From Pseudoxanthomonas koreensis (GTDB lineage Bacteria; Pseudomonadota; Gammaproteobacteria; Xanthomonadales; Xanthomonadaceae), in contig NZ_PDWM01000015.1 of assembly GCF_010093225.1 (NCBI RefSeq), positions 1-64,000 on the forward strand: a stretch of 64,000 nt of DNA, in the 5' to 3' direction. A program made the position numbers and the translations under genes. Of the stretch, positions 1-57,324 are shown one piece after another. Position 1 is the stretch's first letter. Each line of letters starts with the position of its first letter. Below the pieces are notes generated by a model that did not search any database, was not told where the DNA came from, and was given only the letters and a program-made list of their open reading frames with translations.

Positions 1-125
1 CGCCGTACCTTGGGTATATGGCCCAAGTGGCACATGGATGTGCCACGGCCCTTCGTAAAGACAGGATGTCGTCCCGAAGGGTGGGCCATATACCCAAGGT
101 GCGGCGGCCCCCGCCGGAGCCGACG
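1..125 (+). repeat. Structured palindromic repeat, copy A
   Basis: Positions 1-25 and 82-106 form a 25-bp stem with one G-T wobble. Inside it sit two further hairpins: 27-46 (8-bp stem, TGGA loop) and 49-81 (CCCTTCG pairing with CGAAGGG, with an inner GACA/TGTC hairpin at 60-70). The right flank 104-125 (CGGCGG...CCGGAGCCGACG) is shared with copies B (56241-56400) and C (56625-56790). The left flank, if present, lies outside the window. The outer stem sequence differs from the other copies but still pairs with itself. No coding potential is supported. The function is unknown; it could be a MITE/REPIN-like element or a structured RNA. Confidence 0.8.
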
Positions 126-193
126 CTCTTGCTCGATCGCTCGCGCGCCAGCCAGGCAGCCAGGCAGCCCCACGCTTCCCCCCGCGAGAAGGG

Positions 194-54991: not shown

Positions 54992-56173
<1,182 letters not shown>

Positions 56174-56192
56174 TCGGGGCTGGCGGGCGGAC

Positions 56193-56230
56193 CGCAACCG
56201 CAACCGCAACCGCAGGGCAAGGGCAAGGGC
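56193..56230 (+). repeat. Short hexamer tandem repeats
   Basis: Three to four CGCAAC/CCGCAA units are followed by three GGGCAA-type units, just after the tgt stop. Confidence 0.6.
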
Positions 56231-56240
56231 TGTGGGTTTC

Positions 56241-56400
56241 GTCGGCTCCGGACGGAGTCCGCCGTCGCATGGGGGCATGGCCCACCCCTCGGGACGACAT
56301 CCTGTCTTTACTCAGGGCCGTGGCACATCCATGTGCCACTTGGTCCATGCCCCCATGCGCCGACGGCCTTCGGGCACGTTGGGGTTCGCGCCTGCGGCTC
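56241..56400 (-). repeat. Structured palindromic repeat, copy B
   Basis: This is the same element as 1-125 and 56625-56790 but in reverse orientation. The outer stem pairs 56266-56284 with 56341-56359 (about 19 bp, one C-T mismatch), built on CGCATGGGGGCATGG, which differs from the other copies. The inner GTGGCACA hairpin is identical. The second inner arm has CCCTGAG in place of CCCTTCG and pairs less well. Both flanks are also homologous to copy C: GGACTCCGTCCGGAGCCGAC on one side and GACGGCCTTCGGG on the other (both in element or complement sense). Confidence 0.8.
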
Positions 56401-56442
56401 TGGGACCATCCAGGTCGCCTTTCCGACAGGGGCCTGCTCTTC

Positions 56443-56578
56443 TGTAGGAGCTCCCTTCAGGGGCGACCCGAGGACGCCGGAACGCAGCTGCGTTCAACGC
56501 ACCCGCTCCGGAGACCATGCTTGGTATGAAACTGCGCCTTCCAACGTCCTCGGGTCGCCCCTGAAGGGAGCTCCTACA
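56443..56578. repeat. Perfect 34-bp inverted REP pair
   Basis: 56443-56476 is the exact reverse complement of 56545-56578, with a 68-nt spacer. The arms begin TGTAGGAGCTCCCTTCAGGG. The arm sequence is related to, but not the same as, the pair at 42462-42607, again with both arms matched. It sits between palindromic repeat copies B and C. Confidence 0.88.
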
Positions 56579-56624
56579 AAAAACAAACGCCGGATGGGAC
56601 GATTGTTCGGTTTGCTCTCCATTT

Positions 56625-56790
56625 GAACCGCACGGCGCAGACCCAAAAGCTCCCGAAGGCCGTCGTTGCAGCGGGGTATGGCCCAAGTGGCACATGGATG
56701 TGCCACGGCCCTTCGTAAAGACAGGATGTCGTCCCGAAGGGTGGGCCATACCCCGCTGCAACGGCGGACTCGGTCCGAAGCCGGCGCTTT
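56625..56790 (+). repeat. Structured palindromic repeat, copy C
   Basis: The core 56685-56742 is nearly identical to copy A. The outer stem pairs 56660-56685 with 56742-56767 (26 bp, one G-T wobble near the outer end), based on TTGCAGCGGGGTATGG, not the TTGGGTATATGG of copy A. The left flank (GCGCAGACCC...CCCGAAGGCCGTC) matches copy B in reverse complement, and the right flank CGGCGGACTCGGTCCGAAGCCGGCG matches A and B in pattern. It ends about 200 bp before yajC. No coding function is supported. Confidence 0.8.
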
Positions 56791-56952
56791 TGACCTTGTG
56801 ACGCCCGAAGCCAGAGAGTGGCCAAGTCCACCCGGAGTCAGCCCCAACCCGCCGGAAGCCAGAATTGGCGTCCCTCGGCTCCTCCCGGGAACCGCCGCCC
56901 CCGGAAATCGGTCACAGTCCGGGCTTGCAATGGGCCGGGGCCGCCCCTATGG

Positions 56953-56991: not shown

Positions 56992-57324
56992 ATGAGCCTT
57001 GTCGCCACCGCCGTCCCGGCCGTCATCGCTGCCGCTCCCGCCCCGCAGGGCGGCTTCGGCATGCTGCTGTTCCCGATCATCCTGATCGCGATCATGTACT
57101 TCCTGATGATCCGCCCGCAGATGAAGCGGCAGAAGGAGCACAAGGCGATGCTGGACAAGCTCTCCCGCGGCGACGAAGTCATCACTTCCGGCGGCGTGGC
57201 CGGCACCGTCACCGACATCGGCGACAACTTCGTCACCGTCGAAGTGGCCGACAACGTGCGCATCCGCGTGCAGAAGGGCTCCATCGGCAACGTCCTGCCC
57301 AAGGGCACCCTGAAGTCCGCCTGA
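56992..57324 (+). CDS. yajC: Preprotein translocase subunit YajC
   Basis: The protein has 110 aa. A single membrane helix (FGMLLFPIILIAIMYFLMI) is followed by RPQMKRQKEHKAMLDKLSRGD, the YajC signature, and a small beta-domain. It joins SecD and SecF in the accessory translocon complex. AGGAAG lies upstream of the ATG. A longer in-frame start upstream lies within repeat-flanking DNA and is rejected. Confidence 0.96.
   Translation: MSLVATAVPAVIAAAPAPQGGFGMLLFPIILIAIMYFLMIRPQMKRQKEHKAMLDKLSRGDEVITSGGVAGTVTDIGDNFVTVEVADNVRIRVQKGSIGNVLPKGTLKSA

Follow-up and report, generated by a model that had tools for sequence, protein, structure and literature searches.

REP-like repeats have been known for decades, with no agreed function, and the RsmA antagonists of the Xanthomonadaceae are poorly known. 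In the part of PMC7652899 drawn on here, CsrB is described as carrying CAGGA(U/A/C)G repeats in its loops, and CsrA SELEX as yielding RUACARGGAUGU, with ACA and GGA invariant and with four pairs or fewer in most hairpins; RsmE binds an ANGGAN hexaloop, and a single CsrA dimer can span two sites separated by 10-63 nt. The portion of PMC7694677 used here describes RsmU, an RsmA-binding sRNA that is cut from a 3′-UTR in Xanthomonas and whose RsmA binding and overexpression phenotype persisted when all four of its GGA motifs had been changed. In Pseudomonas putida KT2440, according to the available text of PMC7937890, intergenic sequences scattered beside copies of ISPpu8 were recovered with each of the three Rsm proteins, and one of these bound sequences was termed a long palindromic region.

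We analyzed a window of 64,000 nucleotides at the start of a contig (C6) of Pseudoxanthomonas koreensis, whose genome is a 3.05-Mb draft in 93 contigs. The three copies of a dispersed palindromic element reported there by the first-pass annotation are all present, and each is made, by sequence and predicted fold, of a long outer stem and two inner hairpins. Copy A (1-127, plus strand; covariance model R1 match at 1-110) has its outer stem at 1-24 paired with 83-106, hairpin 1 at 27-46 (GGA at 36-38), hairpin 2 at 48-82 (GGA at 64-66) and its 3′ flank at 107-127. It has no 5′ flank because window and contig begin at the same base, and several other contigs likewise start or stop inside the twin-hairpin repeat. 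Copy B (56240-56400, minus strand; R1 match at 56254-56368, E 1.5e-20) shows its GGA loops as TCC on the plus strand at 56328-56330 (hairpin 1) and 56300-56302 (hairpin 2), and copy C (56625-56788, plus strand; R1 match at 56658-56772, E 1.2e-22) has GGA at 56696-56698 and 56724-56726. The fold z-scores against shuffled sequences were -11.1 (1-112), -5.4 (56240-56380, minus strand) and -9.2 (56640-56786), and for each of the three copies none of 200 shuffles was equally stable. As the annotation had noted, the inner part is near-invariant, the outer stems differ between copies yet pair, and copies A and C visibly carry a T-G wobble close to their outer end. Its statement that no named family fits agrees with an Rfam search of the whole window, which at the gathering score returned two tRNAs only; at E<=5, the stretch 56200-56820 gave RsmV for copy C at 12.9 bits (E 0.26), the gathering score being 100.

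Copies B and C form the left and right ends of a head-to-head composite (56240-56788, ~550 bp), with two GTAG-type REPs in inverted orientation at its middle (56440-56485 and 56536-56581; I4, 91% complementary). Six composites in the genome contain such an inner pair (contigs C6, C11, C18, C22, C45 and C55), and in the remaining copy pairs the spacer is a short palindrome or another REP. The unit itself is ~160 nt long. Its outer stem of ~26 pairs encloses two hairpins, whose loops read CANGGAYG (hairpin 1) and CA(N)GGAYG (hairpin 2); the stem is flanked on the 5′ side by a stretch carrying (C)GAAGCC and on the 3′ side by ..CCGGAGCCGACGC, and the two ends of the unit show (C)G(A/G)AGCC as an imperfect direct repeat. 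The outer side of the copies often bears hexamer runs, for example (GCAACC)n. A promoter in the conserved 5′ flank was considered and rejected, no -35/-10 pair being visible in its ~27-nt consensus, (C)GAAGCC...CCC.AAG..CGCGA, taken over 73 named and 37 own copies.

Model R1, a covariance model built from an alignment of 48 genus copies (A1), gave 82 rows in the P. koreensis genome at E<=0.01, of which 49 were kept as copies; this number is an upper bound, since a copy at a contig end may count twice. Of the 33 rows left out (E>=5.5e-7), 32 run antisense to a kept copy and the last is one half of a copy that an insertion sequence interrupts. Seventeen pairs, all minus-plus and with starts 179-426 bases apart, account for 34 of the 49 copies, and six of the 15 single copies lie at contig ends. 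A stricter, loop-based detector, for which the sites were drawn from own, named-genus and G013/G014 loci, found 42 multi-copy sites (38 minus-plus, 2 minus-plus-plus, 1 plus-plus and 1 minus-minus-minus) and 39 more with a single copy. Paired copies are head-to-head, yet many sites have one copy only. One copy is interrupted inside hairpin 2 by an insertion sequence (L034:1588-2895; G000 contig C11, ~114687-115994) with a 107-aa HTH_Tnp_1 frame and a 298-aa rve/HTH_21 frame, which we take to be IS3-like; an apparent 4-bp duplication is seen at the GGA loop.

The first-pass annotation had proposed a covariance-model search of the family. Such a search, with strict filters, matched 86 of 297 genomes in 18 of 54 genera at E<=1e-4; at most 12 candidates were scored per genome, so that per-genome counts are lower bounds, and the weakest rows, which only just pass the threshold, may have arisen by chance. 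A pass over the order matched 20 of 299 genomes at E<=1e-6, all of the same family as P. koreensis, and in a pass over the class 4 of 369 genomes matched; two of these belong to other gammaproteobacterial families and match weakly (E 5e-7 and 7e-7). A core-pattern search of named genomes returned 59 stretches, all from Pseudoxanthomonas, with own-genome records possibly excluded. When more candidates were scored, there were 4 matches in genome G756, 2 in G784 and 9 in G188, a member of the same family that the strict pass had missed, and none at E<=1e-4 in G007, G016 and G307. The predicted folds of the G756 and G784 copies show the same twin-GGA three-way junction (for locus L258 the stretch considered was not the match), and the minus-plus order again prevails among pairs at the G188, G756 and G784 loci. 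Carriage by plasmids or phages was ruled against by empty blastn searches: copy A found nothing in plasmids or phages (E<=0.01 for each), and a G188 copy nothing in plasmids (E<=0.001).

Larger samples bear out the annotation's claim, made from three copies, that the element conserves its structure and not its sequence. In A1, a MAFFT alignment blind to structure (the structure was taken from the first row), both partners changed in 33 of 46 pairs (0 of 500 shuffles), and covariation was 0.476 as opposed to 0.048-0.112 with the partners slid. The corresponding values were 40 of 46 pairs and 0.754 (0.076-0.125 slid) for 18 matches in other genera fitted by R1 (A2), on which RNAalifold predicted 37 pairs, 32 of them changed on both sides, and 42 of 46 pairs and 0.687 (0.068-0.110 slid) for a model-fitted, cross-genus alignment of 55 distinct copies (A5). 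The mean pairwise identity in A5 was 0.505 for the outer stem, 0.677 for the hairpin-1 stem outside CA/TG, 0.599 for helix 3 and 0.621 for helix 4, and it rose to 0.965 for CA..TG and 0.915 for NGGA. Template switching perfects quasi-palindromes, and many same-genome copies are recent, so compensation in a near-perfect palindrome might occur with no selection at all, the loops being constant through recent ancestry. However, the loops persist while the stems drop to ~50% identity across genera, the hairpin helices covary as well, and symmetric correction would not give the excess of G-U over A-C that is described below. We regard this explanation as already disfavoured and very improbable.

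The constant loops match CsrA/RsmA sites, a likeness absent from the first-pass annotation. Among the 55 copies of A5, the hairpin-1 columns C A. G G A. G hold the stated base in 54, 55, -, 54, 55, 55, - and 55 copies, and the hairpin-2 columns C, G, G, A and G in 55, 54, 55, 55 and 55. Hairpin 1 reads CANGGAYG in every row of A2 (18) and of A3 (92), although it was fixed by the search pattern in up to 63 of the A3 rows, and ACANGGAYGU within the genus; hairpin 2, which equals the CsrB repeat, has GGA in 17 of 18 and 92 of 92 rows. The N and Y positions of the loops are where CsrA sites vary. Median GGA-to-GGA distances in four alignments were 28, 28, 27 and 23, and the GGA starts, 20-32 nt apart, fall inside the 10-63 nt bridging range.

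The own-genome alignment A4 entered the loop count with its opposite-strand rows. Because the GGA letters are part of the models, and each match of the pattern used to fetch named loci has one hairpin-1 loop predetermined, the loops were counted again without regard to their sequence. A first scan of this kind (18-bp arms, two mismatches and G-T allowed) gave 292 non-redundant palindromes, 97 with twin GGA, 50 with one and 145 with none, and was replaced since chance palindromes of G+C-rich coding DNA swamped the result. The final scan required 16-bp arms with at most one mismatch and no G-T, and two folded inner hairpins. It found 176 palindromes: in 136 of them both loops of the same strand contained GGA, in 13 a single loop did and in 27 neither; the loci had been fetched for holding the element, so these counts inform on the loops and not on frequency. 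By origin, the twin/one/none counts were 15/1/5 in own loci (n=21), 37/6/5 in genus loci found via BLAST or model (n=48), 57/0/11 in pattern-fetched loci (n=68) and 43/4/5 in model-fetched loci of other genera and families (n=52). The 40 non-twin cases include some unrelated palindromes or copies folded otherwise on the scored strand, and genuine copies with a decayed loop occur at L136, L144, L191 and L197 (e.g. CAGCGATG, CAGTGATG, CAGAGATG and CAAGGCTG). In both the alignments and the loop-blind scan, the apical GGA loops fit the published ANGGAN / CAGGA(U/A/C)G context.

The genome has one gene of the csrA/rsmA family, the product of which starts MLIL.. and carries L4 and R44 (R44 by hand count). 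Taken together, the CsrA-consensus loops, their spacing, this single rsmA and the precedents of RsmU and P. putida suggest that the element is probably a dispersed structured RNA that presents two RsmA/CsrA-binding hairpins, as a decoy or a 3′-UTR tag. Hairpin 1, with its 8 contiguous pairs, weighs against this reading, as most SELEX hairpins have four or fewer; so do the copies with a decayed loop and the persistence of RsmU binding and phenotype after the change of its GGA motifs. Furthermore, the junction columns A33 (53 of 55), G34 (54), C53 (55), G54 (54) and T63 (52) are almost as constant as the loops, so selection may exceed RsmA binding.

The two strands of the element are not equivalent. 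In the 20-bp outer arms of 93 non-redundant elements, the mismatches read on the GGA strand were 72 G-T, 11 A-C and 66 other; were G-T and A-C equally frequent, the binomial p would be 2e-12, with the proviso that the cells are not independent. The G-T:A-C ratio was 7:0 in own, 41:9 in genus and 22:2 in other genera and families. As G-U keeps an RNA stem and A-C breaks it, the GGA strand is under selection, most likely as RNA, although one-strand ssDNA or strand-biased mutation could contribute to the G-T excess. Together with the constant GGA loops, this asymmetry strengthens the functional-RNA side of what the annotation had proposed.

As for the annotation's other proposal, an element mobilised through its fold, dispersal is confirmed, and no transposase partner was found at the Y1 loci examined. 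One alternative reading makes the element a DNA-level mobile palindrome of REP or TIR type, moved as an ssDNA hairpin by a Y1 (HUH) or another transposase, with loops and junction constant since the enzyme reads them. The dispersed, head-to-head, extragenic placement is the behaviour of REPs and TIR repeats, as far as the consulted part of PMC3733652 describes them, and the imperfect direct repeats at the unit ends, the GTAG REPs inside the composites and the presence or absence of the pair at tgt-yajC point the same way. On the other hand, at 13 Y1 loci (12 of the 24 same-genus matches and the own one), no convincing element was found beside the gene, one match of 26.5 bits overlapping a GTAG REP. 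A Y1/RAYT partner was rejected on two further grounds: the only Y1 match of the P. koreensis genome (L067) is trailed by GTAG REPs, of the same type as those inside the composite, and not by the twin-hairpin element, and copy number and Y1 number are uncoupled in the genus (the 11 elements of G001 are accompanied by no Y1 match, and G007, with two Y1 matches, lacks the element). A cruciform, in addition, predicts equal numbers of G-T and A-C, against the 72:11 found, though one-strand ssDNA also favours G-T, and the loop consensus belongs to an RNA-binding protein. On balance, we consider the DNA-level explanation unlikely.

The composite of the window lies between tgt, which ends at 56173, and yajC, which starts at 56992. 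Sixteen genomes of the genus gave a yajC match; the pair is absent from the interval in 13 of them and present in three (own, G004 and G014), where the gap is 818-1203 nt. In 12 of the 13 the predicted gap is 120-280 nt and holds no element match, although one of these 12, G003, apparently retains the 3′ flank alone, as judged by eye. Among the three species with the pair, both the stems and the REPs differ. With regard to a MITE of a DDE transposon, this presence and absence came without a clean empty-site duplication, and the partner search covered Y1 transposases. Runs of (GCAACC)n stand beside the left copy in all three (L242:~285-450, window 56190-56215 and L240:~515-545), the run in G004 being very long, and in G014 the right copy has its 3′ flank module in ~4 tandem repeats (L240:~1075-1300).

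With respect to the surrounding genes, as called by a simple codon-bias script, the copies are mostly behind gene ends. The 23 internal sites of the P. koreensis genome were classified by eye as 12 convergent, 10 co-directional and 1 divergent, and the 19 scripted sites as 8, 10 and 1 against background gaps of 14, 26 and 15; the convergent excess in this genome is not significant (8/19 vs 14/55, p 0.24). In the named genus, the 55 sites (23 convergent, 27 co-directional, 5 divergent), compared with 180 background gaps (18, 105 and 57), differ in the convergent excess (p 4.6e-7) and in the divergent class (p 7e-4). The median distance from stop codon to element is 112 nt in the own genome, 140 nt in the named genus and 212 in G013/G014 (8 values). 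Of the 34 own gene ends that point towards an element, nine are separated from it by a terminator-like hairpin and 25 are not. These distances in the own genome and the named genus, the convergent excess, the 25 ends lacking a terminator-like hairpin and the constant letters of the three-way junction would all suit a generic 3′-end RNA structure, a stabiliser of mRNA or a bidirectional transcript boundary as proposed for REPs, whose GGA loops serve RNA tertiary structure or another protein. A stabiliser, however, requires a stem and not twin CsrA-consensus loops, and these loops vary at N and Y exactly as CsrA sites do, which makes this alternative, in our judgment, improbable.

If the element does act through RsmA, its copies would be transcribed by read-through from flanking genes or from promoters of their own, the long outer stem would shield the processed RNA, and one RsmA dimer would bridge both GGA loops. 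Tens of copies might then jointly titrate RsmA, or mark and stabilise the 3′ ends that bear them, or both, while a mobilising activity would spread the element and account for its loss between species. In a head-to-head pair, a transcript from either side has one GGA-sense copy. Single copies in co-directional gaps, however, are 9 sense and 9 antisense, which counts against simple read-through from the upstream gene. The convergent excess of the named genus favours the RsmA reading, and its lack of significance in the own genome and the nine gene ends with a terminator-like hairpin speak against it. Were the loops to bind RsmA, there would be a concrete reason for keeping an extragenic repeat and a new layer of the Csr/Rsm system, and this is a directly testable claim. 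More tentatively, the element could be a mobile repeat with a CsrA/RsmA-loop pair as conserved cargo, a distributed regulator sponge tying the expression of flanking genes to free CsrA/RsmA, a possibility we consider less likely than not. Gain and loss of the repeat would in that case rewire post-transcriptional regulation, and the system would span tens of 3′ ends in many Xanthomonadaceae and in other gammaproteobacterial families.

Literature searches, in the parts of the sources that they covered, did not find a published description of the twin-hairpin element. Like REPs, BIMEs and REPINs, as portrayed in the available part of PMC3733652, it is extragenic, stands behind gene ends, forms inverted dimers and has G-T pairs in its stem. 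REPs, however, are 20-40 bp long and have a GTAG tag and a Y1 partner, whereas the element is a ~160-nt three-way junction; no GTAG tag was found at its foot, where the flanks show (C)GAAGCC... The nearest described DNA family is that of the S. maltophilia TIR repeats and TIRtrons, compared by description only, which according to the same portion of PMC3733652 are long, self-complementary in one family and include many dimers, but differ in an association with Y1 genes that was not found for the element. Two other repeats were seen in passing: a further GGA-hairpin element, ..CATGGATGG.. followed by a second hairpin, lies near twin-GGA elements in other genera (L204:1925-2031, L219:2093-2199, L215:1770-1876), and a separate family of ~89-bp near-perfect palindromes with an inner GCGTCTGCGTGAAACCGG occurs at P. 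jiangsuensis loci (L076:4983-5071, L085:7779-7867, L109:4167-4255 and others).

Among RNAs, RsmU resembles the element in its bacterial family, its GGA motifs and its 3′-UTR origin, and differs in being a single locus behind comEA, according to the section of PMC7694677 used here. RsmU was rejected as a member of the element family, as eight ComEA-like loci gave no match to model R2 at E<=1. GGA hairpins were nevertheless observed behind several of these eight loci, with three behind each ComEA-like (HHH_3) stretch of the own genome and of G004 (L286:1189-1300, minus strand; L287:1835-2010, plus strand), and in the g7 genomes GGA motifs and then a strong terminator follow comEA; these hairpins are possible relatives of RsmU outside Xanthomonas. 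The ISPpu8-adjacent palindromes of P. putida, likened by description only and from the part of PMC7937890 at hand, are dispersed and intergenic like the element, and were recovered with Rsm proteins. Finally, CsrB/CsrC, RsmX/Y/Z and RsmV share with it GGA in loops in the CAGGA(U/A/C)G or ANGGAN context and more than one site per RNA at bridging distance; they are single sRNA genes, whereas the element occurs in up to 49 dispersed copies and its two hairpins ride a long variable stem.
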